Assembly: GCF_003990725.2 (NCBI RefSeq)
Contig: NZ_CP030064.1
Span: forward strand, 2,294,001-2,358,000
Source of the DNA: Halorubrum sp. PV6
GTDB lineage: Archaea > Halobacteriota > Halobacteria > Halobacteriales > Haloferacaceae
DNA length: 64,000 nucleotides
Reading direction: 5' to 3'
Positions 21,466 to 38,379 of this stretch are shown piece after piece. A program made the translations under genes and the position numbers. The number at the start of each line of letters is the position of its first letter. Position 1 is the stretch's first letter. Under the pieces are notes generated by a model that saw only the letters and a list, made by a program, of their open reading frames with translations, searched no databases and was not told the origin of the DNA.

Positions 21466-22566
21466 TCAGTCTTCGAGGACCGGGCTGTCCCAGTACTCGT
21501 GGTCCGGATCGCCGCGGAAGCAGGCGCTCTTGTGGCCCCCCTCCGGCCCGCGCAGCGCTGGTGCGGCCGCCTGGCACGCCTCGCGCGCCTCCGGACAGCG
21601 CGTGTGGAACCGACAGCCGCTCGGCGGGTTGACCGGGTCGGGGATGTCGATTTTCCGCATGGGCGGTTCGCTCGCGCCGGCGGAGTCGAGCGCGAGGTCC
21701 GGCGTCGCCCACCGGAGGACGTTCGTGTACGGGTGGCCCGGATTCTCGATGAGGTCCTCGGCCGGGCCGACCTCCACGAGCTCGCCGAGGTACATCACGC
21801 CGATGCGCCCGTCGCCGTGCTCGGCGAAGTACCGCGCGTTCGAGAGGTCGTGCGAGATGAACACGAAGGAGGTGTTGAAATCCTCCTGTAGATCCAGCAT
21901 GAGGTCCATCATCTCCACGCGCAACGAGACGTCGAGCGCGCTGATGGCCTCGTCCGCGAGGATCAGGTCGGGGTTCATCAACAGGGCGCGAGAGAGCGCG
22001 ACCCGCTGTTTCTCGCCGCCGCTGAGCTGGTGCGGATACCGGTCGGCGAAGTCGGACGCCGGGTTCATCCCGACGCGTTCGAGCAGCGAGAAGATCCGCT
22101 CTCGCCGCTCGCTGAGACCGACCTCCGGGTGCGTCAGCTTGATCGGTTGCGAGAGGATCTCGACTATCTTCTGGTTCGGATTCAGCGAGCTACCGGGATC
22201 CTGGTGGATGATCTGGAGCGACGACCGGATCTCGTCGAACGGGATGTCGACGTCACCGCGCCCGTCTTTGGCCTCCCAGATGTCCTGTCCCCGGTAGCGG
22301 ACGGAGCCGCCGGTGGGGCGCTGGAGGCCGATGCTCGTCTTGCCGAGGGTGGACTTCCCGCACCCGCTCTCGCCGACGAGGGCGATCACGTCGTTCTCCT
22401 CGATGTCGAGCGAGATGCCGTCGACGGCTCTCACGACGTCCGGCTCCTCGAAGAACTCGAAGACCCCCTGTTCTTTCTCGAAGTGGACCTCGACGTTGTC
22501 GAGCGAGACGAGCGGCTCCTCGTCTTGGGCGGTGGCCGCCGCCTCGCGCGTGTCGGGGTGGCTCAT
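21466..22566 (-). CDS. Opp/Dpp-type ABC importer ATPase (F-type subunit)
   Basis: The 366-residue ATPase has a Walker A GESGCGKSTLGKT, signature LSGGEKQRVALSRA, Walker B LILADEAISALD (Ala where Pro is usual after DE) and an FISHDLS switch. The C-terminal oligopeptide/dipeptide extension has NPPSGCRFHTRCPEAREAC, with Cys residues typical of this family. Its ATG overlaps the stop of the D-type ATPase gene by four bases (ATGA). It works with the D-type ATPase to drive uptake. The neighbouring sugar genes suggest a glycoside rather than a peptide substrate, as in some thermophile cellobiose importers of this class. Confidence 0.92.
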   Translation of the reverse strand: MSHPDTREAAATAQDEEPLVSLDNVEVHFEKEQGVFEFFEEPDVVRAVDGISLDIEENDVIALVGESGCGKSTLGKTSIGLQRPTGGSVRYRGQDIWEAKDGRGDVDIPFDEIRSSLQIIHQDPGSSLNPNQKIVEILSQPIKLTHPEVGLSERRERIFSLLERVGMNPASDFADRYPHQLSGGEKQRVALSRALLMNPDLILADEAISALDVSLRVEMMDLMLDLQEDFNTSFVFISHDLSNARYFAEHGDGRIGVMYLGELVEVGPAEDLIENPGHPYTNVLRWATPDLALDSAGASEPPMRKIDIPDPVNPPSGCRFHTRCPEAREACQAAAPALRGPEGGHKSACFRGDPDHEYWDSPVLED

Positions 22567-23654
22567 CGATCGCCCTCCGAGCCGGCGCCGGTGGCCGTCG
22601 GGTCCTTCGCCTCGAAGTTGAGCGTGATCGACTCGCGCGCCTCCTCCCAGCGGTGACAGGCCGTGCTGTGGCCCGCCCCGGTGTCGTAGAAGTCGGGGTC
22701 GACGTCGCGGCACTCCTCGGTCGCGAGCGGACAGCGCGGGGCGTACGAACAGCCCGAGGGCACGTTGATCGGCGCCGGGCTCTGCCCCTCGATGGCGCGC
22801 ATCTCTTCGAGCGGCGCGTCGAGGTTCGGCGTGGAGTTGAGCAACGCACGCGTGTACGGGTGCCCCGAGTTGCCGATGAGCTGGTCGCGCGGCGCGACCT
22901 CGATGAGGTCGAAGGCGTACATCACCGCCATCCGGTCGGCCAGCGCGGCCACCAGCGGCAGGTCGTGCGTGATGAACACCATCGTCAGGTCGTACTTCTC
23001 CTGTAGCTCCTGGAGGAGCATCAAGATGGACCGCTGCATCAACAGGTCGAGCGCGGCCGTCGGCTCGTCCATCACGAGCACGTCCGGTTCGAGGACGAGC
23101 GAGAGGGCGATGAGCGCCCGCTGGGTCATCCCGCCCGAAAGCTCGTGCGGGTACGAGTCGAGCACCCGGTCCGGGTCGAGATACAGGTCTGAGAGCAGCT
23201 CGCGGGCGAACTCTAACCCCTCGGTGACGTGGGCGTCGTGGGCCTTCAGCGTCTCCTTGAAGTGCCCCCCGATCTTCATCGTCGGGTTGAACGAGCTCAT
23301 CGCACCCTGGAACACCATTGCGACCTCCTCCCAGCGGAACTGTCGCAGCTCCTCGTCGCTGAGCTCTAAGACGTCGATGGTCGTCCCGTCCGGGCGGTGA
23401 TACAGCACCTCACCGGAGAGCCGTCCGGGGTCGGGAATCGCGTCGAGCATCGCCGAGGCGAGCATCGACTTCCCGCTCCCGCTCTCGCCGACGACGCCGA
23501 CGACCTCGTTGCGCTCTATCGAGACGCTCACGTCGTCTAAGACGTACGACTCGCCGTTGTCGTAGGTGACTTTGGCGTTTCGCATCTCGATTATCGGATC
23601 GGTCGCCGTCGACGGGTCGCCGTACTCTCTGTCCATTGTCGTGTTCTGCGCCAT
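22563..23654 (-). CDS. Opp/Dpp-type ABC importer ATPase (D-type subunit)
   Basis: The 363-residue ATPase has Walker A GESGSGKSMLASA, signature LSGGMTQRALIALS, Walker B VLVMDEPTAALD and switch FITHDLP, then the C-terminal Opp/Dpp segment INVPSGCSYAPRCPLATEEC. It forms the ATPase pair with the F-type subunit. It starts next to the stop of the second permease gene and overlaps the F-type gene by four bases, so translation is probably coupled. Confidence 0.92.
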   Translation of the reverse strand: MAQNTTMDREYGDPSTATDPIIEMRNAKVTYDNGESYVLDDVSVSIERNEVVGVVGESGSGKSMLASAMLDAIPDPGRLSGEVLYHRPDGTTIDVLELSDEELRQFRWEEVAMVFQGAMSSFNPTMKIGGHFKETLKAHDAHVTEGLEFARELLSDLYLDPDRVLDSYPHELSGGMTQRALIALSLVLEPDVLVMDEPTAALDLLMQRSILMLLQELQEKYDLTMVFITHDLPLVAALADRMAVMYAFDLIEVAPRDQLIGNSGHPYTRALLNSTPNLDAPLEEMRAIEGQSPAPINVPSGCSYAPRCPLATEECRDVDPDFYDTGAGHSTACHRWEEARESITLNFEAKDPTATGAGSEGDR

Positions 23655-24671
23655 TTACAGCACCTCCGTCACAGTGTCTTCGTCGTCTTCGGCCGTCGAT
23701 TTCGACTCGCCGGCCATCCGCGTCCGGACGCGGGGGTTGAACACGCGGTCTAACCCCTGTCCGAGCAGGATGAGTCCGAGCGAGAGCCCCATGATCGCGG
23801 CCATCGGGGCCAAGAGCCAGTGGGCGGCCTCCAACGAGAAGAGCGCCCCGCCGCTGTACGCGAAGTTGAGCGTCACCCCCCAGTTTTGCGTCGAGTAGGG
23901 CAACACGCCGAGGAAGTAGAGCCCGACCGACGCGAACATGACGTAGCGCGCGGCGAACACGAAGTTGACCGTCACGTACGGCATCAGGTTCGGGATGACG
24001 TCTTTGATGATGATGCGCGGCGTGCTGATACCCATCGTCCGAGAGGCTTCGACGTAGTTGTTCTCCCGGATCGTGAGCACCTGCGACCGGAGCGACCGAC
24101 CGAGGCCGGCCCAGTAGCTAATGTTGATGATGACGCCCAACAGAACCGGGTTCTCGGGATTGAGCGTCACCGCGAGGATGATGACGAGCGGCAGCCCCGG
24201 AATCGCCATCACGAGGTCCGAGAAGGACATGAGCCCGCGGTCGACGCTGCCGCCCTTGTACCCGGCGACCGTGCCGATGATGACCGCGATGACCGTCGCC
24301 CAGACCGCGCCCGCGGTGATCATGATGAGGATGCTCGGCGTCGAGTGGATGATGAGCGCCATCAGGTCGGTCCCCGAGGCCGTCGTCCCCAGCGGGTAGT
24401 TCATGTTCTCGAACAGCGTGAGGTAGCGGGGCGCCTGGCTCGTCGACGGCTCTCGCCACAGTCCGAGGACCGCGACGAGCCCCATCAGGATGTACACGCC
24501 GATGATCAACAGCCCGAAGCGCGTCCGCCAGTCGGACCACGCGATCACGGCGGGCGTCCGTATCTGGGCCTCGTAGATCTCTTTGAGCCGCTCTTTCCGC
24601 GTGACGTCGGCCGACGAACCGCTGTCGCTTCGCCAGTCGACGCTCGTCGTTTCCGTTTCAGTAGGCTTCAT
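23655..24671 (-). CDS. ABC importer permease (DppC/OppC type)
   Basis: This permease has an N-terminal cytoplasmic tail, a first membrane helix near FGLLIIGVYILMGLVAVLGLW, and five more in the BPD_transp_1 domain, with the coupling-helix region YVEASRTMGISTPRIIIKDVIPNLMPY that contacts the ATPases. The extra N-terminal region is typical of the C-type subunit. The ATG at 24671 gives 338 residues and overlaps the B-type permease by 14 bases. A GTG at 24680 would add three residues. Confidence 0.9.
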   Translation of the reverse strand: MKPTETETTSVDWRSDSGSSADVTRKERLKEIYEAQIRTPAVIAWSDWRTRFGLLIIGVYILMGLVAVLGLWREPSTSQAPRYLTLFENMNYPLGTTASGTDLMALIIHSTPSILIMITAGAVWATVIAVIIGTVAGYKGGSVDRGLMSFSDLVMAIPGLPLVIILAVTLNPENPVLLGVIINISYWAGLGRSLRSQVLTIRENNYVEASRTMGISTPRIIIKDVIPNLMPYVTVNFVFAARYVMFASVGLYFLGVLPYSTQNWGVTLNFAYSGGALFSLEAAHWLLAPMAAIMGLSLGLILLGQGLDRVFNPRVRTRMAGESKSTAEDDEDTVTEVL

Positions 24672-25662
24672 CTGACTCACCTGCGCTGATCCGCGGGTCG
24701 ATCCGGCTGTACGTCAGGTCGGCGATGAACACGCCCACGACGAGCGCCACGGTGATGACGAGGAACGTCCCCATCATCAGCGGGTAGTCGTTGGCGTTGA
24801 GCGCCGTGATCATGTAGTAGCCGAGCCCGGTGTACGAGAAGATCTGCTCTAAGATGACGGTCCCGCCGAGACGGAAGCCGAGCAGGAGCAGGAACCCCGT
24901 GTACATCGGGAGGATGGCGTTCCGCGCGACGTATCGCGTCGCGATACGGCGGTCGGAGAGCCCGCGGAGCCGCGCCACCTGTACGTAGTCGTTGCCCAGT
25001 ACCTGGATGCTGTTCCCGCGCATCGCGAGCGCCTGACCGCCGGCGGCGCCCAGCGTGTACGAGACGATGGGCAGGATGCTGTGTTTCAGCGCGCTGACGA
25101 GGAACGGCACCCCGAGGCTGCGTTCGACGCTGTTGCTGACCGTGCCCGCCGTCGGGAGCCACCCGAGCTGGTAGGCGAAGATGTACAGCGCGATGACCGC
25201 GACGACGTAGAACGGGAGCGACATCAGCGAGATGGAGACGCCGGTGACCAGCTGGTCGAAGCGGCTCCCCTCCCAGTACGCCTGCAGCGACCCGATGAAG
25301 ATGCCGATGACGAAGACCAGAATCGTCGAGACGAGCACGACGAACACGGTCCACGGCGCGGCCTTGGCTATCACCGCCACCACGGGCTCACCGAGCGAGA
25401 TGGACTCGCCGAGGTTGCCCTGGAACAGCGCGAGCATGTAGTCGATGTACTGCTGCCACAGCGGTTCGTTGGGCCGGATGTTCTGGAGGTTCGCGATTCT
25501 CGCGTCGACCTCGTCGGCCGGCACCCCCTGTCGCAGCAGTTGCGCGCGCAGCAGCGTGAACGGACCGCCGGGCAGGAGCCGAACTAGCCCGAACGTCAGC
25601 GACGCTACGAGGAAGACCGTGACGAACACTCTGGCGGTCCGCCGCACGTAGTAGTTGACCAT
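24658..25662 (-). CDS. ABC importer permease (DppB/OppB type)
   Basis: The 334-residue permease begins MVNYYVRRTARVFVTVFLVA, the usual first helix of the B-type subunit, with the LLPGGPF loop and the DARIANLQNIRPNEPLWQQYIDYM region found between helices 1 and 2 in this family. The coupling segment is YVQVARLRGLSDRRIATRYVARNAILP. It lies 21 bases after the binding-protein gene and overlaps the C-type permease, in one five-gene operon. Confidence 0.91.
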   Translation of the reverse strand: MVNYYVRRTARVFVTVFLVASLTFGLVRLLPGGPFTLLRAQLLRQGVPADEVDARIANLQNIRPNEPLWQQYIDYMLALFQGNLGESISLGEPVVAVIAKAAPWTVFVVLVSTILVFVIGIFIGSLQAYWEGSRFDQLVTGVSISLMSLPFYVVAVIALYIFAYQLGWLPTAGTVSNSVERSLGVPFLVSALKHSILPIVSYTLGAAGGQALAMRGNSIQVLGNDYVQVARLRGLSDRRIATRYVARNAILPMYTGFLLLLGFRLGGTVILEQIFSYTGLGYYMITALNANDYPLMMGTFLVITVALVVGVFIADLTYSRIDPRISAGESDEAY

Positions 25663-25683: not shown

Positions 25684-27480
25684 TTACTGCTTTGCGCCCA
25701 GCTTGCCCTGCTTCGGGAGCCAGTGCGAGGGCCACTTGACGCCGCGAGCGGGGTCGTCTTCGCCGGCGACGTTCCACTCGGCGTCGGTGAGCCACGACTG
25801 GTCGACCTTGGCGACGAGGCTCAACACCGGGATGTTCTGGTTGTGGTGCCACGCGACGCGCTTGACCGTCTCTTCGACGGCCGCCTCGTCCTGCGACGTT
25901 GCGACCGAGGTGATCTCTTCGAGGGGGTCGAGCGTCATCTCGCCGGAGCCGTCCATCGCGGGGACGGTGTGTTCGCCCTCGGGGAAGTTGTGGCCGCCGT
26001 CGATGTCCGGGATCTTCATCTGCCAGCGCAGCGGGAAGTACGGGAACGACGAGCGGGCGCCGCCGGGAAGCCAGTAGAAGGCGCCCATCGTGAAGTTGGA
26101 CTCGATGTAGGCGCCGAAGTAGTCGCCCTGCGGGAGCGAGTTGATCTCGAAGTCGAACCCGAAGGAGTTGAGCTGGTCGACGACCGTGTTGGTCGCCGTC
26201 GTCCAGTCGGTCCAGCCGGCCGGGGTGATGTAGCTGCCGCCGAGCGCGTTGCCGTCGCCGTCTTGCCACGTGCCGTCGGACTTGGTGTAGCCGGCCTCGC
26301 GGAGCAGCGAGGCGGCCTTCTCTGTGTTGGACGCGTTCGGACCGTACCCCTCGAAGCTGTCGAGGTCGTCGCCGAGCCACGTCTCCTGGTCTTCCGGCGG
26401 GATGCCGGTGACCTTCGGTGCGGGGGTTTTCGTCCGCGGCCCCGAGTTGTCGGCGACCTGCTGGCGGTTGATCACGTGTGCGATAGCCTGTCGAACCTTC
26501 CGTTTGCCGAAGTCCTCGTCGTCGTGGTTGAAAATGGCGCCGTACCCCCACTTGGCCGGGAGCTGAACCTCCTCGACGCGGTCCGGGAAGTTGGCGACGA
26601 TGGTCGGCGGGGTAAACAGACTGGAGACGACGTCGAGTTCACCGCCCAGCAGTCCCTGCTGGAGCGCGGTGTTGTCGGTGCGGGTGAGCAGCTCGTACGT
26701 GTTGTAATTGACGTTGTCGGCGGCGTGGAAGTTCTCGTTGCGGCGCAGCGTCCAGCCCTGATCGCTTTTCGACTCGAACGAGAACGGGCCGTTGCCGTGG
26801 ATGTCTTCTTCCCACTTGAACTGCTGGACGGCCGAGGCCTCCTGATCGAGGAACTTCTCGTAAACCGGCTGATACGCGTGAATCCGGAGGTCGCCGTTCG
26901 CCAGCGTGTGTTTGATGATCTGCGGGTTCGTCGGATCGCTCAGGTTCAACACGACCGTCTTGTCGTCGTCGCCCTGCTCGACGCTCTCGACGTAGTCCCA
27001 GAGCGTGGCGCCCGTCTTCTGCATCAGCTTGAACTGCGTGATGACGTCGCCGGCCGTCACGTCGTCGCCGGTGTCCCACGCGAGGTCGTCGCGCAGCGTG
27101 AGCGTCACGGTCGTCCCGTCGAACGACCAGTCGGAGAGGCCCGCAAGTTCGAACTCCTGCGTCGTGAAGTTGTACGCGGCGAAGCGCTCGAAGAGGTGGT
27201 TCCCGGCGATCCAGTCGTAGTTCTGGGTCGCCATCGGGTTCACGTGCATGTTCGTCGGAACCCCGTTGTTGGTCGCCCCGACGAGGGTCGTGTCGACGAC
27301 GCCCGATCCACCGGTGCCGTCGCTCCCGTCGCTTCCGTCGCTCCCGTCGCTTCCGTCGCCACCGCCACCGCCGCTGCTGTCGGTACAGCCGGCGAGGGCT
27401 GCGGCACCCGACGCGCCGGTGAGCGTCACGAAGTGCCGTCGGCTAATCATATCGCTATAGTTGTCGGTAGGGTCTGACAT
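25684..27480 (-). CDS. Tat-exported lipoprotein substrate-binding protein (SBP_bac_5 family)
   Basis: The 598-residue protein is the binding component of the importer. Its signal MISRRHFVTLTGASGAAALAGC carries the twin-arginine motif and a lipobox, so it should be Tat-exported and lipid-anchored. A linker of GSD repeats follows the Cys, as in many haloarchaeal binding proteins. Family-5 features include DLAWDTGDDVTAGDVITQFK and GKRKVRQAIAHVINRQQV. The ligand is unknown. Family 5 binds peptides, nickel or glyco-oligomers, and the neighbourhood favours a sugar. The ATG at 27480 (MSDPTDNYSD) was chosen; 27450 is the next candidate. It is the first gene of the operon. Confidence 0.9.
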   Translation of the reverse strand: MSDPTDNYSDMISRRHFVTLTGASGAAALAGCTDSSGGGGGDGSDGSDGSDGSDGTGGSGVVDTTLVGATNNGVPTNMHVNPMATQNYDWIAGNHLFERFAAYNFTTQEFELAGLSDWSFDGTTVTLTLRDDLAWDTGDDVTAGDVITQFKLMQKTGATLWDYVESVEQGDDDKTVVLNLSDPTNPQIIKHTLANGDLRIHAYQPVYEKFLDQEASAVQQFKWEEDIHGNGPFSFESKSDQGWTLRRNENFHAADNVNYNTYELLTRTDNTALQQGLLGGELDVVSSLFTPPTIVANFPDRVEEVQLPAKWGYGAIFNHDDEDFGKRKVRQAIAHVINRQQVADNSGPRTKTPAPKVTGIPPEDQETWLGDDLDSFEGYGPNASNTEKAASLLREAGYTKSDGTWQDGDGNALGGSYITPAGWTDWTTATNTVVDQLNSFGFDFEINSLPQGDYFGAYIESNFTMGAFYWLPGGARSSFPYFPLRWQMKIPDIDGGHNFPEGEHTVPAMDGSGEMTLDPLEEITSVATSQDEAAVEETVKRVAWHHNQNIPVLSLVAKVDQSWLTDAEWNVAGEDDPARGVKWPSHWLPKQGKLGAKQ

Positions 27481-27657
27481 TGAACAGTGAAATCGTTCTC
27501 TCATCTATTATTAAATGTTATGGTAAATGGTCTATCATCGCAGACACAGCCACCTGTACGACGAGACGAGAGGGCAGCGTAGACGGGGGATCGCGCTCTC
27601 GCGCCGGAGATCGGTCGCAACAAAAGAATTAACCCGTGAGATTCGGTATCATGAATA
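27481..27657. promoter_or_regulatory. Divergent promoter region of the importer and peroxidase-like genes
   Basis: The gap carries a minus-strand TATA-like TTTAATA (about 27508-27515), about 30 bases before the binding-protein start, and AT-rich sequence before the plus-strand gene at 27658, with GAATTAACC at about 27626. The segment around 27505-27530 is AT-rich and the most likely site for regulator binding. A shared regulator for the two divergent units is plausible. Confidence 0.4.
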
Positions 27658-28983
27658 ATGCGATCAGATAAGCCGCAGGACCTTCCTCGCCGGAGTTTCG
27701 TCCGCGCCGCCGTCGCCATCGGCGGGACGAGCGCCCTTTCGGCGTGCCTCGAAACGGAGCAGGACCAACTCGGTGAGGTCGGTGGCGCCGCCGAGACGAC
27801 GGCGGCGGACGCCGACGGCCCGACGTTTCCCAGAGGCGACCTGTCGGCCGTCCCGGCCGGCCAGCACCGGTGGGGAGAGTGGCTGGTGCGCGACGCACAC
27901 GGGAACACCGTGCCGCCACAACAGCTCGTGGCGATCGGTCTCACCTACGAGGGGTCGGCCCCGCCGACCGACGACGAGCGAGCCGGCGTCGAAGCGTCCC
28001 TGCAACTGCTCGAACGGGCGTTCCAGTGGGGGACTGGCGGGAACGCCGGCGCGAGTTTCCACCGCGGGCTCCTGTTTATGCTCGGCTACGCGCCGTCGTA
28101 CTTCGACCGGGTCGGCGACGTGCCCGAGGGGCTCCCGACGCCGGAGTCGGTCTTGGAGGCCCTCGGCGAGGACCCCGCACGCGCGGACGACTACGACGCG
28201 GTGTTGATCCTCACGAGCGACATCGGCTCCATCCTCCTCTCGGCGGAGGAGGCGCTTTTCGGCGGGCTCGACGAACTCAACGGGCTGCCGGTCGAGTCGA
28301 CGTTCGAGGGAGTCTTCTCGAAGGCGGGCCGGCACGTCGGCTACGTCGGCAAGGGGCTGCCGGCGGACAAGCTCGACCACGAGGGGATTCCGGAGAACGC
28401 CCCGCTGTCGATGGGGTATAAATCCGGGTTCCGCGACAACCTCCCGAGCGAGGACCGCGTCACCATCGACGAGGGACCGATGGCCGGCGGGACGACCATC
28501 GCCTCCTCGACGCTCCGGATCGATCTGGACCGCTGGTACGAGCAAGGTCAGGAGGAACGGACCGCGGAGATGTTCTGTCCGGCACACGACCCGGACGACA
28601 TCGGGACGACCGGCGACAAGCTCGGCGGGGACAGCGGCGTCACCGAGGCGGACGTCGAGAACATCGACCGCCACGCCGAGGAGTACGACCGCGTCGGCCA
28701 CACCCAGAAGGTCGCTCGCGCACGCGACGACGACTTCGAGGCCCGGATCCTCCGCCGGACCGAGGGGGTCGCCGACACCGTCCGCGACGGGGCCGGCTTC
28801 CAGTTCAACTCGGTCCAGAAGTCGATGACCGACTTCGTCGAGACGCGGAAAGCGATGGACCCGGAGGAGTACGACCACGACGTGGCGGCCGACGCCCACG
28901 GCATCGACGACTACCTGGAGACGCTCCGCCGCGGCAGTTACCTCGCGCCGCCGCGCGAGAAGCGCGCGCTCCCGGTGATCTGA
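27658..28983 (+). CDS. Tat-exported lipoprotein related to Dyp-type peroxidases
   Basis: The 441-residue protein starts with a Tat signal PRRSFVRAAVAIGGTSALSAC, with lipobox Cys at 30. The body shows weak but ordered likeness to Dyp-type peroxidases: GFRDN at 257-261 (the GFKDG motif with the catalytic Asp kept), STLRIDLDRWYEQ at 284-296, VGHTQKVARAR at 346-356 with a candidate heme-binding His348, ILRRTEG at 364-370 and FQFNSVQKSMTDFVETRKAM at 381-400. I recall a haloarchaeal family of this type (DUF7405). Peroxidase activity is inferred, not shown. The next gene starts after one base, so the two are co-expressed. Confidence 0.72.
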   Translation: MRSDKPQDLPRRSFVRAAVAIGGTSALSACLETEQDQLGEVGGAAETTAADADGPTFPRGDLSAVPAGQHRWGEWLVRDAHGNTVPPQQLVAIGLTYEGSAPPTDDERAGVEASLQLLERAFQWGTGGNAGASFHRGLLFMLGYAPSYFDRVGDVPEGLPTPESVLEALGEDPARADDYDAVLILTSDIGSILLSAEEALFGGLDELNGLPVESTFEGVFSKAGRHVGYVGKGLPADKLDHEGIPENAPLSMGYKSGFRDNLPSEDRVTIDEGPMAGGTTIASSTLRIDLDRWYEQGQEERTAEMFCPAHDPDDIGTTGDKLGGDSGVTEADVENIDRHAEEYDRVGHTQKVARARDDDFEARILRRTEGVADTVRDGAGFQFNSVQKSMTDFVETRKAMDPEEYDHDVAADAHGIDDYLETLRRGSYLAPPREKRALPVI

Positions 28984-28984
28984 G

Positions 28985-30691
28985 ATGCGGGACGGTGGAC
29001 GCGCCGTCCTCGTGGCCCTGCTCCTCGTCCTCGCCGGCTGTTCGGCGGGGGGCGCGTTCGGGACGGGCGGCGACGACGCGGGCCGGGAGCCGGCCCGACT
29101 GCAGTTCGAAGACGCGACGGCGGCGTCGGGGCTCTCGTACGAGGCGACCGGCACCGGCGTCGGCAGCGGGAACTCGGGCGTCTACGTCGCCGACGTGAAC
29201 CGCGACTCGTGGCCGGACATCCTCGCCACCGGCGGGGCGGAGCCGGCGCTGTTCGTCAACGACGGCGGGACGTTCACACGGCGGGAGGCGCTGCCGGGCG
29301 TCCCCGGCGAGATCAAAAGCGCCGCGTTCGTCGACGTCGAGGGCGACGGCTGGCCCGACCTGCTTCTGTTCGGCAAAGACGGGACGGTCCGGGCGTACCA
29401 CAACGACGAGGGGACCTTCGAGCCGACCGACTACGGCATCGGGACCCTCTCGTACCCGCTCGGCGCGACGGCCGCCGACTACGACGGCGACGGCGACCAG
29501 GACCTGTTCGTCTACCAGTCGGGGTCCTGGCGCGAGTCGAAGCCGGCGGGCTACTTCAACCTCAACACGACCGTCGACACCGACAACGGGCACCCGAACT
29601 ACCTCTACGAGAACGTCAACGGGTCGTTCGAGCGCGTCCGGACGGACGACATCGGAGGCGACCACTGGAGCCTGGCGGCGAGTTTCGCCGACCTGACCGG
29701 CGACGGCCGCCCCGACATCCACGTCGCCAATGACTACAACGACGACACGCTCTACGTCAACCGCGGCGGCGGGTCGTTCGAGCGCCGGTCGCTCGGCGGG
29801 TCGACGGCGCGGAACGGGATGGCCTCCGAGGTGGCCGACGTGACGGGCGACGGGCGGCCGGACGTGTTCGTCTCGAACATCTGGTTCCCGGATTTACAGG
29901 CGAACATGGAGCCCGAGCGCTACGACCGGCTGAAACGGCTCTTGGAGTTCGTGATCCACTCCAGCCGGACGAAGGGGAACACGCTGCTCGTCGGGCAGGG
30001 CGACGGCACGTTCACTGATCAGGCCGACGGCCTCGGCGTCCGCCGGGGCGGGTGGGGGTGGGCCGCGAGCATGACCGACTTCGACAACGACGGCGACCGC
30101 GACCTGGTCCACACGACCCAACACGTCATCAGAGTCGACCGGGAGGACCCCGTCTACACCTACCCAATGGCGTTCCAGTCGAACCGGAGCGCCGCCGGCG
30201 ACGACGGCGCGTTCACGCGCGTGAACAAGACGGTAAACGGGATGCGAGAGACCGACGGCCGGGGGTTAGCCACCCTCGATTACGACCGCGACGGGGCACA
30301 GGAGCTCGTCGTCGCGACGTACGACGACCCGTTCGTCGTCTACGACAACGCCGGGACCGGCGACCGCAACAGCGTCCAGTTCCGCGTCGTCGACGACGCC
30401 GGCGCGACCGCGCTCGGCGCCGAGGTGACCGTGACGGCCGACGGCGAGCAGACGGGAGAACAGAAGATCCACCAGACGGACAACACGGACTACCTCTCGC
30501 AGGACTCGCGGGTCGAACACGTCGGCGTCGGCGACGCGGAGACGGTGTCGCTGCGCGTCGTCTGGCCCGACGGCACCGAACGCCGGTTCGAGGACGTCGA
30601 CGCGAACCAGCGGTTCCGGATAGCCGAGTCCGGGATCGTCGCGGTGTCGTCCACGGCGGCCGAGGGGTCGGCCGATCCCGACTCATCATAA
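28985..30691 (+). CDS. CRTAC1-type lipoprotein with FG-GAP/VCBS repeats and ASPIC/UnbV domain
   Basis: The 568-residue protein has a signal peptide ending LVLAGC (Cys19), then a beta-propeller of FG-GAP/VCBS repeats recognisable as YVADVNRDSWPDILATGG, FVDVEGDGWPDLLLFG, AADYDGDGDQDLFVYQ, FADLTGDGRPDIHVAN, VADVTGDGRPDVFVSN and MTDFDNDGDRDLVHTT, each with a DxDxDG-like calcium loop. The C-terminal part (about 455-545) matches the ASPIC/UnbV region (VRVVWPDG-like, then RFEDVDANQRFRI). It is lipid-anchored outside the cell and probably binds or organises a partner, most likely the peroxidase-like protein encoded one base upstream. Confidence 0.85.
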   Translation: MRDGGRAVLVALLLVLAGCSAGGAFGTGGDDAGREPARLQFEDATAASGLSYEATGTGVGSGNSGVYVADVNRDSWPDILATGGAEPALFVNDGGTFTRREALPGVPGEIKSAAFVDVEGDGWPDLLLFGKDGTVRAYHNDEGTFEPTDYGIGTLSYPLGATAADYDGDGDQDLFVYQSGSWRESKPAGYFNLNTTVDTDNGHPNYLYENVNGSFERVRTDDIGGDHWSLAASFADLTGDGRPDIHVANDYNDDTLYVNRGGGSFERRSLGGSTARNGMASEVADVTGDGRPDVFVSNIWFPDLQANMEPERYDRLKRLLEFVIHSSRTKGNTLLVGQGDGTFTDQADGLGVRRGGWGWAASMTDFDNDGDRDLVHTTQHVIRVDREDPVYTYPMAFQSNRSAAGDDGAFTRVNKTVNGMRETDGRGLATLDYDRDGAQELVVATYDDPFVVYDNAGTGDRNSVQFRVVDDAGATALGAEVTVTADGEQTGEQKIHQTDNTDYLSQDSRVEHVGVGDAETVSLRVVWPDGTERRFEDVDANQRFRIAESGIVAVSSTAAEGSADPDSS

Positions 30692-30723: not shown

Positions 30724-32955
30724 ATGCAGTCGAGTAGCAAGCAGCCGCTATATAAAGACGATACTGTCACTCTCACGAAGCGCGTCGACGACCTTCTGGA
30801 GAGGATGACACTCGAAGAGAAGGCCGGGCAGCTCGTCGGGACGTGGGCCGGGCAGCTCAGCGAGTTCAAGTCGGTCGACGACGTCGCCGACGAGGTCCGG
30901 GAACACGGGGTCGGCGCCGTCGCGTCGTTCGGGTGGGGCGGTGCGGTCGACATGCGGCTGGACGACATCGTGGAGAACGTAAACCGGCTCCAGGAGGTCG
31001 CCCTCTCGGAGACCCGCCTCGGGATTCCGCTGCTGTTCAACGTCGACGCCGTCCACGGTCACGCCTACGTGGCCGAGGGGACGGCGTTCCCGAACGGGCT
31101 CGGCGTCGGCGCGACGTGGGACGCGGACAGGGCGGAACAGGCCGCCGCCGTCACCGCGACCGAGGTCCGGCGATCCGGCGCACACCAGAACTACTCGCCG
31201 ACCTGTGACGTGGCCCGCGACCCCCGGTGGGGGCGCGCGTTCGAGACGTTCGGCGAGAGCCCGTACCTCTGCGGGAAGCTGGCGGCGGGGAAGGTACGCG
31301 GGTATCAGGGAGACGGCATCGAGGAGCGAGACTCGGTCATCGCGACGGCGAAGCACTTCCCGGCGTACAGCGAGCCCGCGCGCGGCGAGGACGCCGCGCC
31401 GGTCGAGGTGTCCGAGTACGTGCTGCGGAACGTCTTCCTCCCGTCGTTCTTCGAGGCGCTCGACGAGGACGTCGAGTCGGTGATGCCGTGTTACAACGCC
31501 ATCGACGGCGAACCGGCGCACGGCTCGCGCCGGTACCTCACCGACCTGCTCCGGGGGACGCTCGGCTTCGACGGGACCATCGTCTCCGACTGGAGCGGCG
31601 TCCAGATGCTCCACGGCGACCACAAGATAACCGAGGACCACCGCGGCTCGGTCCGACAGACGCGCGATGCGGGACTCGACATCGCGTCCGTGGACGCGGT
31701 CGACCACGCCGAGCATCTCGTGTCCTTAGTCGAGGAGGGCGAGCTCGCCGAGGCGACCGTCGACGAGAGCGTCAGGCGCGTCCTCGAACAGAAGTTCCGT
31801 CTCGGCCTGTTCGAAGACGCCTTCGTCGACCTCACCGAGGCGCGCGACGTCGTCGGCGCGGACCCGCACCGCGAGGCGTCGCTCGACGCGGCCCGCGAGT
31901 CGATGACGCTCCTGAAGAACGACGACCTGCTCCCGCTCGACGGCGACGAGGACGTGTTGGTCGCCGGCCCGAACGCCGACGAACCGGTCCACCAGCTCGG
32001 CGGGTGGAGCGTCCCCGACGCCGAGGGCACGGACATCGTGACGGTGCGCGACGGCATCGGCGCGGTCACGGACGGCGAGGTCGTCTACGAACGGGGCGCG
32101 ACCATGAACGACGAGCTCGACGTCGACGCAGCCGTGGAGGCGGCCGCCGACGTCGACGTGGCCGTCGTCGCGGTCGGCGAGCCGTGGTACCTCCACGAGT
32201 TCGGCCCGTCGGTGGACACCGGCACCGAACCCGACGAGTTCCCCAACCGCCACTCGCTCGCGCTCCCCGACGCGCAGCGCGACCTCGTTGAGGCCATCCA
32301 CGAGACGGGGACGCCCGTCGTCGGCGTGTTGGTCACCGGCCGGCCGCTCATCCTCGACTGGATGGCCGAGCACGTGCCGGCGCTGCTCATGGCGTACTAC
32401 CCCGGAACGATGGGCGGGCGGGCCGTCGCCGAGACGCTGTTCGGCGAGAACGAGCCCGGCGGCCGGCTCCCGATTTCGATTCCGAGATCCGAGGGCCACC
32501 TGCCGACCCGGTTCAACCACTTCCCGCACCCGACACCGATCGGGCAGGACGAACACCCCTCGTCGTACGACCCCCTCTTCGAGTTCGGACACGGACTCAG
32601 CTACGCCGAGTTCGAGTACGGCGAGGCGACGCTCGACGCCTCGACCATCGGCCCTCACGAGACGACGACCCTGCAGGTCCCGGTCGAGAACGTGAGCGAC
32701 CGAGCCGGCACCGAGGTCGTCCAGGTGTACGTCACCGACCACGCCAGCGCCACGGTGACCCCGGTCCGCGAGCTCCGCGGCTTCGAGCGCGTCTCGCTCG
32801 ACGCCGGGGAAGCGACCACGGTGGAGGTCAAGCTCGACGCGGCGTCGTTCGGCCGGGTTGACGACGACGGCGTCCGCCAGACGGACGCCGGCGAGTACAC
32901 GGTTCGCGTCGGCGAGCAGACGGTCGAGCTGCGCGTCGAAACGACCTACAACTGA
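30724..32955 (+). CDS. Glycoside hydrolase family 3 (beta-glucosidase-like)
   Basis: The 743-residue enzyme has the full GH3 layout: an N-terminal barrel with LLFNVDAVHGHA (Asp108), SPTCDVARDPRWGRAFETFGE and TAKHFPAY, and the nucleophile Asp289 in GFDGTIVSDWSG; an alpha/beta sandwich with VLVAGPNAD and LLMAYYPGTMGGRAVAETLFG; and a C-terminal fibronectin-type III-like domain (about 630-740). No signal peptide is seen, so it acts in the cytoplasm on an imported glycoside. Substrate preference (glucoside or xyloside) cannot be read. It sits between the importer cluster and the TrmB regulator and overlaps the latter by ten bases tail to tail. Confidence 0.92.
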   Translation: MQSSSKQPLYKDDTVTLTKRVDDLLERMTLEEKAGQLVGTWAGQLSEFKSVDDVADEVREHGVGAVASFGWGGAVDMRLDDIVENVNRLQEVALSETRLGIPLLFNVDAVHGHAYVAEGTAFPNGLGVGATWDADRAEQAAAVTATEVRRSGAHQNYSPTCDVARDPRWGRAFETFGESPYLCGKLAAGKVRGYQGDGIEERDSVIATAKHFPAYSEPARGEDAAPVEVSEYVLRNVFLPSFFEALDEDVESVMPCYNAIDGEPAHGSRRYLTDLLRGTLGFDGTIVSDWSGVQMLHGDHKITEDHRGSVRQTRDAGLDIASVDAVDHAEHLVSLVEEGELAEATVDESVRRVLEQKFRLGLFEDAFVDLTEARDVVGADPHREASLDAARESMTLLKNDDLLPLDGDEDVLVAGPNADEPVHQLGGWSVPDAEGTDIVTVRDGIGAVTDGEVVYERGATMNDELDVDAAVEAAADVDVAVVAVGEPWYLHEFGPSVDTGTEPDEFPNRHSLALPDAQRDLVEAIHETGTPVVGVLVTGRPLILDWMAEHVPALLMAYYPGTMGGRAVAETLFGENEPGGRLPISIPRSEGHLPTRFNHFPHPTPIGQDEHPSSYDPLFEFGHGLSYAEFEYGEATLDASTIGPHETTTLQVPVENVSDRAGTEVVQVYVTDHASATVTPVRELRGFERVSLDAGEATTVEVKLDAASFGRVDDDGVRQTDAGEYTVRVGEQTVELRVETTYN

Positions 32956-34028
32956 GCGTCGCCGTCGAAGGCGATCGCTTCGAGCGTTATCTTCTGCGCT
33001 TCGAGGTCCTCGAAGACGGCCCCCCAGCCGCCGACGGACAGCTCTTCGGAGCCCGTGTCCAGCCACACGATGGAGTACGTCGAGAGCCGTTCGAGCGACG
33101 GGGTGTGGTTCGTGAAGATGTCCGGGTAGTAGACGTTCGTGACCGTGCCGGTGACGGTTCGGAAGGCCCTCGTCTCCACGTCGAGCCCGTCGATGGTCAC
33201 GGCGATGCTCGCGCCGGCGTGGTACAGCGCGCTCACGTCGCGGATGAACTCCTTCAGGCTGATGTACGTCTTCGGCAGCTGCTGGTTCGACGACAGCGGC
33301 TCCCACGAGTACCAGAGGCAGGTCTGAAAGTACCAGTGGTTGATAAAGGAGAGAATGTTGTCGTGGATCAGAATGCCGTAGTTCTCCTCGGCGCGCGAGT
33401 TCGGCGCGAAGTAGGTGCGGCTCCGGTCGAGGACGGCGAGGAACGGCCCCGGAATCTTGACGACGCGCATCTCCAAGTTCGGCCCCGAAAGCTCCCACTC
33501 CGCGCTCCGCTCGGCGATGTCTGGCTCGTAGTAGACGGCGACGTGAACGATCACGTCGCGGTCGGCGGCCGCCTGCAGGTCGGCTCGGAGCGACTCGAAC
33601 TGGTCTGCGGTCAAGGCGAGCTCGACGGCCACGTCGGCCTCGCGGACCTGCGTTCGGACGTGCTCTAACACCGTTTCGGCGTGTTTGACGACCCCGACGC
33701 GGTGGTCTTTGAGATCCGGCTGCTCCCACCGCTCTTCGAGTTCCTCGGCGGCGTCGGTAAAGAGGTTGCCGCGCTCCCGCAGGTGCGAGAGGATGTCGAC
33801 CGGGTCGGACGGCTCCGCGTGCAGTCGGTCTTGATCGATGGTCTCGACGAACCCCTTGGTCTCTAACGACCGAAGCGTCTCGTACACCTGTGAGGTCGGG
33901 ACGCTGGACTTCTTGGCCACGTCGACGGCCGGCAGACGCCCGTGGTCGACGAGCGTCAGGTACGCATCGGCCTCGTACCCCGTGAGGTCGGCGTTTTCCA
34001 GCGCCCGTTTGAGTGTGTCCCGGTCCAT
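32946..34028 (-). CDS. TrmB-family sugar-sensing transcriptional regulator
   Basis: The 360-residue protein has a TrmB winged helix at about 1-75 (TGYEADAYLTLVDHGRLPAVDVAKKSSVPTSQVYETLRSLETKGFV), a coiled coil, and a long sensor domain (about 110-355) of the TrmB regulator type. YFAPNSRAEENYGILIHDN and the C-terminal beta-rich segment match those sugar-binding regulators. It probably controls the nearby importer, GH3 and oxidoreductase genes in response to a sugar. The ATG at 34028 is used; a GTG two codons upstream is possible. A TATA-like stretch lies at about 34049-34056, with palindromes further upstream. Confidence 0.87.
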   Translation of the reverse strand: MDRDTLKRALENADLTGYEADAYLTLVDHGRLPAVDVAKKSSVPTSQVYETLRSLETKGFVETIDQDRLHAEPSDPVDILSHLRERGNLFTDAAEELEERWEQPDLKDHRVGVVKHAETVLEHVRTQVREADVAVELALTADQFESLRADLQAAADRDVIVHVAVYYEPDIAERSAEWELSGPNLEMRVVKIPGPFLAVLDRSRTYFAPNSRAEENYGILIHDNILSFINHWYFQTCLWYSWEPLSSNQQLPKTYISLKEFIRDVSALYHAGASIAVTIDGLDVETRAFRTVTGTVTNVYYPDIFTNHTPSLERLSTYSIVWLDTGSEELSVGGWGAVFEDLEAQKITLEAIAFDGDAQL

Positions 34029-34111
34029 ACACACGCCTCGGACGCATCGTATGAATTTCTATCGCACTATCGCAAGAACACATATGAATTCGTATATGAA
34101 CTATCGAAGGA

Positions 34112-36245: not shown

Positions 36246-36426
36246 GGCCGTATCGCGGTCCGGAGCGGTATAAAACGCGTCGGCTCGCTGAACGCGCGTC
36301 GCCCCGGAGCGAGGTGGTCGAGCGAGCAGACGACCACACCGCGGGGCCGTGACGCGGTCACACACCACGCTGATCGCGGGAAAACGGAACGCTCGCGGCT
36401 ATCAGACGCAATATTTGGAGCCGGTG

Positions 36427-36435
36427 TTATTATAT
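36427..36435 (+). promoter_or_regulatory. TATA box of the transducer gene
   Basis: TTATTATAT lies about 25 bases before the ATG at 36457 and is the only AT-rich block in the nurA-transducer gap. Confidence 0.5.
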
Positions 36436-36456
36436 GAGCCACCGCGATGTCGAACC

Positions 36457-38379
36457 ATGACGGAATCAACGGTAGGGGCTGCGTCCGGCGCGTCGGAGGC
36501 GTCCGGCATCGGCCAGAAGATCCGGGAGGTGGTCAGGTACATCCCCGACGGCAAGTCGATGCCCGAGGAGATGTGGGGCGGTCGGCACCGAAACATTCTG
36601 ATCGCCATCGTGGTACAGGTGCCGTTCCTGGTGGCGCTCGGGCTGTACAGCGGGACCGAATCGTTCACCGGCGCGCAGATCCCCGCGACGCCGGCGTGGA
36701 TGCTCGGGATGTTCGTCAGCGTCATCATCGCGACCAGCGCCTTGGCGAACGTGTCTCGGTTCGGCCGGCGGAATCGGTCTATCCTCGCCGCGTTCAGCCT
36801 GATGACGGCCTCGATGGCGCTGGTGAAACTCTCCGGCGGGTACATCGAGGCGCACTTCAGTTTCTTCGTGTTCGTCGCGGTGCTCGCCTTGTACGAGGAC
36901 TGGGTGCCGTTCGCCGTCGGGGTCGCGTACGTCGCCATCGGCCACGGCGCGTTCAGCCTGATCGATTCGAGCCTCGTCTACAACCACGCCGCGGCGATCG
37001 AGAACCCGGTCATCTGGGGCGGCATCCACGCGGCCTTCGTCCTCATGCTCGTGGGCGCGCTCATGATCAACTGGTACTCGATCGAGAAGTCGCGCGAGGA
37101 GGCCCAGCGCCAGCTCGACCTCGTCGCCGAGCAGAAGGCGGAAATTCAGGATGTTGAGGAGGCGAAGGCGGAAGTCGAGAAGCGACGCGAGGAGGTCGAG
37201 TCGCTGAACGACCACCTCGAAGCGAAGGCCGACGCCTACAGCGCGGCGATGGACCGCGCGGCCGACGGTGACCTCACCGTGCGGCTGGACGCCGAAAGCG
37301 AGAGCGAAGCCATGGAGCAGATCGGCGCCGCGTTCAACGCGATGCTCGACGACATCGAGACGACGGTACAGAACGTCCAGTCGTTCGCGGGCGAGGTGTC
37401 TGCGGCCAGCGAGAAGACGGTCGCCGGCGTCGACACCGCCGAGGCGCGCAGCGAGGACGTGCGCCAGTCGATAGAGGAGATAGCCGAGGGCGCCGCGGAC
37501 CAGCGCGAGATGCTCGAACAGGTCTCCGGGGAGATGAACAACCTCTCCGCGACCATCGAGGAGGTCGCGTCCTCGACGGAGAGCGTCGCGGACACCGCCC
37601 AGCAGACGGCGACGATCGCCGACGAGGGCGAAGCGACCGCGGAGGAGGCGATGGAAAGCGTCAGGGAGTCGCAGGGCGCGATAGACGAGACGGCGGAGAA
37701 GGTCCGCGTCCTCGACGAGCGGATGGAGGACATCGGCGAGATCGTCGACCTCATCAGCGACATCGCGGAGCAGACGAACCTGCTCGCGCTCAACGCCAAC
37801 ATCGAGGCCGCCCGCGCCGGCGGCGGAAGCGGCGGGAGCGACGGGTTCGCCGTCGTCGCCGACGAGGTCAAACAGCTCGCCGAGGAGACCCAGGAGGCCG
37901 CCGGGGAGATCGAGGAGCTCATCGCCGGCACGCAGGCGCAGACGCAGGCGACCGTCGAGGAGGTCCGGACCGCGGAAGAGCACATGGAGGCCGGCGCCGA
38001 CGCGGTCGAAGACGCCGCCGACGCGTTCGAAAACGTGGCGGCCAACGCGGGCGCGACCGACGACGGCATCCGCGAGATCAGCAAGGCCACCGACGATCAG
38101 GCGGCCAGCACCGAGGAGGCGGTGTCGATGGCCGAGGAGGTCGCGGAGATCAGCCGATCGACCGCCGACGAGGCCGACGAGGTCGGCGTGGCCGCCGACG
38201 AGCAGCTCGACGCGATGTCGCAGGCGACCGCCGAGGCCAGCTCGGTCTCCGAACGGACCGAACGGCTCGGAACGCTGCTCCGGAAGTTCGACGTGTCTGG
38301 GGGGTCGGTCGGCGACCGCTCTGCGACGGGCGCGAGCGACGTGGCCGTCGGCGACGGCGGGAAGCCCGAGACGAACTGA
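36457..38379 (+). CDS. Methyl-accepting chemotaxis transducer with a six-helix membrane sensor
   Basis: The 640-residue protein has about six membrane helices in residues 45-225, with no large outside domain, and conserved-looking His residues in [22 protein letters not shown] and AIGHGAFSL. This sensor type is shared with the oxygen transducer HtrVIII and some bacterial kinases. A coiled coil (about 230-265) and a HAMP-like segment [13 protein letters not shown] lead to the cytoplasmic domain, whose tip reads [34 protein letters not shown], with glycine-serine residues where AGExGxGF is usual. It should signal to CheA/CheW in taxis, possibly to oxygen. Confidence 0.88.

Follow-up and report, generated by a model that had tools for sequence, protein, structure and literature searches.

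The analysed window is a 64-kb stretch of the 3.04-Mb genome of Halorubrum sp. PV6, and it carries on the forward strand two adjacent genes, ORF1 (ATG at 27658, stop at 28983, 441 aa) and ORF2 (ATG at 28985, stop at 30691, 568 aa), which are separated, as the original prediction had stated, by the single base 28984. This one-base spacing is not general, with values ranging from −9 to 35 in co-directional copies, whose starts are estimated. ORF1 matches the Pfam family DUF7405 (PF24152) with an E-value of 4e-107 and is the only DUF7405 copy in its own genome. Its N-terminus combines a twin-Arg motif with a lipobox cysteine, Cys30, and Arg11, Arg12, and Cys30 are invariant in all 40 aligned DUF7405 members, in agreement with the predicted Tat-exported lipoprotein. 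ORF2 matches FG-GAP_3 over seven stretches (E 5.7e-46) and, at its C-terminus, the UnbV_ASPIC domain (E 1.2e-14), and a lipobox-like LAGC at residues 16–19 fits the lipid-anchored FG-GAP/ASPIC protein that had been proposed. Since this lipobox is present and the ORF2 N-terminus has no twin-Arg motif, ORF2 looks like a Sec lipoprotein, and the two proteins probably take different export routes, Tat and Sec. Of the shared export that had been predicted, the lipid anchor signals are found in both proteins, but the common route probably is not. NCBIfam models matched neither ORF1 nor ORF2.

Upstream of the pair and divergent from it lies a five-gene Opp/Dpp-type importer, entirely on the reverse strand. 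It is made up of an SBP_bac_5 solute-binding Tat lipoprotein (25684..27504), two permeases (24658–25662 and 23655–24680, together 23655..25662), and two ATPases (22563–23654 and about 21466–22566), the second ATPase having an approximate 5′ end and being assigned through its clustering with the first. Downstream, ORF2 is followed by a forward-strand GH3 glycosidase (30724..32955) and a reverse-strand TrmB-type sugar-responsive regulator (32946..34034), so that the pair is indeed divergent from an importer and adjoins a GH3 gene, as first described. The best NCBIfam scores of the GH3 protein are to exo-beta-1,3/1,6-glucosidase and beta-xylosidase/arabinosidase models, far under both cut-offs. 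No EfeO/EfeU-type partner is present among the annotated neighbours in the window, which are the importer, GH3, and TrmB genes. A methyl-accepting chemotaxis protein is encoded close to the pair (36349–38379), with related genes near the pair in loci L098, L099, L104, and L105. At some distance, between 60001 and 62000, the G+C content of the window drops to 0.535, as compared with 0.605–0.742 in the remaining 2-kb steps.

The DyP-type affinity proposed for ORF1 is recovered by profile-profile comparison. An hhalign comparison of 40 DUF7405 proteins with 14 bacterial DyPs gave a probability of 97.9 and an E-value of 5.8e-13 over 300 columns; the 24 CRTAC1-linked members alone gave 1.4e-9, and the window protein with five relatives 7.5e-8. 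Among the controls run against the same DyPs, the GH3 and ORF2 profiles gave E-values of 0.62 and 0.19, respectively, and the solute-binding protein gave 2e-4, but confined to 27 Tat-signal columns. The Dyp_perox_C model (PF20628) matches 15 of the 40 members (best E 1.5e-6), and 11 of the 24 in the CRTAC1-linked set, with no match for the window ORF1 taken alone. Across the class, this model finds a match in 10 of 97 genomes, and all ten loci carry DUF7405 relatives of ORF1. Searches with phmmer and ORF1 as the query found no DyP, and the DUF7405 profile matched DyPs in the PDB only weakly (E 0.08–0.1). The phmmer matches of ORF1 in the PDB, to a hydroxyisobutyrate dehydrogenase and a sliding clamp, were rejected as chance; in the top PDB profile matches (BURRH), only signal-peptide columns align. 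An AF2 model of the mature ORF1, built on a 6-sequence alignment (ORF1 and five relatives), reached a pLDDT of 32. A scan of viral contigs with the DUF7405 family alignment returned no relative. Judged on profile similarity, ORF1 belongs to the DyP superfamily as one of its divergent branches. The DyP affinity of DUF7405 is not in itself new, since plasmid records already name some stand-alone members "Dyp-type peroxidase domain-containing protein"; three linked members that were looked up are annotated as "hypothetical protein" or "Tat pathway signal protein".

The residues expected at a DyP heme site are partly retained in ORF1. His348, the putative proximal heme ligand, and Arg366 and Arg367 of the ILRR motif are invariant in 40/40 DUF7405 members, so both the candidate ligand and the ILRR motif of the original prediction stand, and a conserved candidate heme ligand is not missing from the family. 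Three MAFFT modes place EfeB His329 on His348, Arg347 on the putative distal Arg366, Trp282 on Trp293, and Asp235 on Ser256, and the distance between the His and the Arg is 18 residues in both EfeB and ORF1. Because the 40-member hhalign alignment opens a gap beside His348, the register of this residue rests on the three MAFFT modes and on the hhalign comparison restricted to linked members. The GFRDN segment (257–261) had been read as a DyP motif; it is present, but it lies four residues out of register with GxxDG in the three MAFFT runs, the true counterpart being GYKSG (253–257). At the Asp position of GxxDG, residue 256 is Ser in 24 and Ala in 16 members, and the catalytic Asp is thus lost in 40/40, which places ORF1 in a divergent DyP branch and not among the canonical DyP peroxidases. 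Asp260 of GFRDN aligns with EfeB Asn239 and is an Asp in 19 of 24 CRTAC1-linked members versus 0 of 16 stand-alone ones; judged from this alignment, it could conceivably act as a surrogate for the lost Asp. KpDyP reportedly relies on its distal Asp for the deprotonation of H2O2 (PMC6153280). For Streptomyces lividans DtpB, an Asp-to-Ala variant is reported to form Compound I like the wild type, the Arg being needed (PMC8463360), and on that account peroxide chemistry is compatible with the loss of this residue. ORF1 thus resembles EfeB and other DyPs in its homology over about 300 columns, its twin-Arg signal, the invariant His and Arg of its family, and their spacing. It differs from them in the Ser or Ala at the GxxDG Asp position and in its lipid anchor, and from EfeB in having a CRTAC1-type partner instead of EfeO/EfeU.

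ORF2 contains three D.[DN].DG motifs, and its AF2 model (pLDDT 70, pTM 0.70) adopts a propeller fold. Foldseek ranked murine CRTAC1 (PDB 9etn) on top with an E-value of 1.6e-20, with integrins next. VIA superimposed the model onto 9etn with a Z-score of 28.9 and an r.m.s. deviation of 2.8 over 370 aligned residues, several unrelated propellers ranking equal to or slightly above it; the lectin PLL4 is among the many propellers matched. By sequence, ORF2 matches CRTAC1 (E 7.4e-8) and a GlcNAc-specific lectin (E 1.3e-4). Calcium blades of the Dx[DN]xDG type are known as well from a fungal lectin and from a rhamnogalacturonan lyase (PMC3123361). From its sequence and predicted structure, ORF2 is a CRTAC1-type propeller: it shares FG-GAP repeats and an ASPIC domain with the CRTAC1/ASPIC-UnbV proteins and differs from them in being archaeal, membrane-anchored, and encoded beside a DyP-like gene. 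In some bacteria, the CRTAC1 gene is reported to be flanked by hydrazine-synthase-like heme subunits (PMC12758564). There, too, a CRTAC1-type gene adjoins genes for putative heme proteins, and in some taxa solute-binding protein genes are close by, but the heme protein belongs to another family and the parallel is one of context only. The window genome carries a second ASPIC gene (a 492-aa frame at G000:C1:810200-810400), away from DUF7405, and ASPIC frames of about 492 aa are common in the genus.

DUF7405 is present in 261 and ASPIC in 95 of 292 genomes of the class. The copies closest to ORF1, sampled at 49–100% identity from 29 genomes with the window copy included, adjoin an ASPIC gene in 30 of 30 cases among the matches listed, and the co-occurrence of the two genes is therefore a constant feature of the ORF1 branch as sampled. 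The survey took the best five candidates per genome among the matches listed, so that lower copies may be missed, and scored adjacency by comparing the positions of DUF7405 and ASPIC matches. Twenty-three of the 30 pairs are co-directional and seven convergent; Halocatena marina (a named plasmid record) shows a third gene order, a divergent pair, together with an importer. The next copy after these 30 (G052) comes from a genome with no ASPIC match among the matches listed, and a copy in G286, which is separated from its ASPIC gene by about 10 kb, was left out of the 30. No relative of ORF2 was found at 21 stand-alone DUF7405 loci. In a quick tree, 33 stand-alone rows fall on one side of a branch; the linked rows do not form one clade, and the linked/stand-alone label requires three changes, L066 lying with the others near the root and L067 on a long branch. 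One contig, G285:C53 (L109–L111), carries a cluster of five ASPIC genes; this genome has six DUF7405 matches in all, and the two seen on C53 are not adjacent to ASPIC genes.

The gene neighbourhoods of linked and stand-alone copies differ. We compared about 9 kb on each side of 30 linked loci (the window and 29 others) and 21 stand-alone loci, hand-chosen for diversity, with genes called by a simple script and clusters named from one representative each; the counts include related, non-independent genomes, and their significance is therefore overstated. Permeases occur at 21/30 linked versus 0/21 stand-alone loci, ATPases at 22/30 versus 2/21, SBP_bac_5 proteins at 16/30 versus 0/21, GH3 at 14/30 versus 0/21, TrmB at 8/30 versus 0/21, and GH81 at 3/30 versus 0/21. 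Some importer part lies near 26 of the 30 linked loci, and an importer part or GH3/GH81 near 27, the remaining three (L102, L103, and L107) having neither within about 9 kb. The surroundings of the pair are thus not random. In Halobaculum lipolyticum, the pair is found with GH43, an alpha-glucuronidase, two GH3 genes, and uxaC, a set of the glucuronoxylan type, and in Natronosalvus amylolyticus with an importer and glycosyl hydrolases of the GH81 sequence cluster. The use of curdlan and laminarin by haloarchaeal isolates has been credited to GH81 and GH3 (PMC9726719). A HEAT-repeat protein (12/30 linked versus 0/21 stand-alone loci) and a 77-aa membrane-like protein (8/30 versus 0/21) also recur, at L004, L083, L096–L099, L101, L104, and L105.

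A solute-binding protein scoring at least 540 bits against that of the window was found at 41 places among the matches listed, 14 of them beside the pair and 27 not, as counted by eye. Twelve of the 27 pair-less loci were examined: all retain the importer and GH3, none carries a DUF7405 or CRTAC1 cluster, and in 10 of 12 the solute-binding protein and GH3 genes are direct or near-direct neighbours, whereas in the window the pair separates them. As the importer/GH3 locus occurs without it, we take the pair to be an optional cassette of two genes that belongs to haloarchaeal loci for glycan uptake. It had been proposed to act on the substrate before uptake; such a step is not a required one, given its absence from 12/12 of these loci.

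Taken as a whole, the earlier interpretation of the pair is partly supported, and the data support a dedicated module of a DyP-like and a CRTAC1-type protein that is attached to glycan uptake. The DyP homology, the invariant His and Arg, the loss of the GxxDG Asp, the conserved pairing, the sugar-locus context, and the propeller fold of ORF2 are the observations from which a function can be proposed. ORF1, exported by Tat and lipid-anchored, would fold as a divergent DyP-type α+β barrel and bind heme via His348, with the distal Arg366 sustaining peroxide chemistry even though the usual Asp is missing. ORF2, as a lipid-anchored calcium-type propeller, would dock to ORF1 on the one hand and to a glycan or a polymer of the wall on the other. 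Working beside the importer, the two proteins would oxidize either the polysaccharide as such or aromatics attached to it, and thereby widen substrate access. That a surface heme protein and a glycan-docking propeller form an oxidative accessory to polysaccharide use is the reading we tentatively prefer, at a likelihood somewhat short of even. Its more specific form, in which an Asp-less, Arg-driven DyP branch docked to a glycan-binding calcium propeller would be an archaeal surface oxidative front end for polysaccharide use, and would fill the role that oxidative enzymes have in the bacteria and fungi that degrade polysaccharides, is doubtful. If it were true, haloarchaea would acquire polysaccharide partly through a surface heme protein. 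Among the papers listed by a mainly open-access literature search, none was seen to name DUF7405 or to describe a CRTAC1-type gene for haloarchaeal glycan loci.

The main rival is an EfeB-like iron or heme chemistry, because the sister, stand-alone branch points to iron and not to sugar: the cassette would free or redox-cycle polysaccharide- or heme-bound iron at the surface, the sugar loci supplying an iron-loaded ligand. We consider it unlikely, if worth serious attention. The 18-residue His-to-Arg spacing common to EfeB and ORF1 speaks for it, the DyPs compared include an EfeB with an adjoining efeO, and at 13 of 21 stand-alone loci a DUF7350 protein matching Iron_transport (PF10634) is encoded nearby; this protein, however, is found at 0/30 CRTAC1-linked loci, the PF10634 match is absent from the window's own genome, and the neighbours of the pair are sugar genes.

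The loss of the GxxDG Asp in every member would also suit a non-catalytic scaffold, in which ORF1 has no DyP chemistry and the two proteins are surface glycan-binding or docking lipoproteins for the importer. The resemblance of ORF2 to a GlcNAc-specific lectin, and of its model to PLL4 among many propellers, points the same way, but His348, Arg366, and Arg367, needless for a pure scaffold, are nonetheless invariant, and we regard this explanation as decidedly unlikely. It is highly improbable that the pair serves surface protection, removing H2O2 or other oxidants that sugar oxidation produces but not itself acting on the polymer: all that favours it is that DyP relatives are reported to use H2O2 (PMC6153280, PMC8463360), and it leaves the constant CRTAC1-type partner and the glycan context unexplained.

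If the oxidative accessory is the right reading, DUF7405, a Pfam family of unknown function, would comprise two partner-defined branches, a CRTAC1/sugar branch and an Iron_transport-like/iron branch. The stand-alone branch has in common with ORF1 the family, the His and Arg, and the lost Asp, and differs in its missing ORF2 relative and its frequent DUF7350 neighbour; DUF7405 and DUF7350 are here a candidate haloarchaeal EfeB-like iron module. Nine of the 21 stand-alone loci (L112 and L114–L133) also lie near an HVO_0163-type HTH gene.
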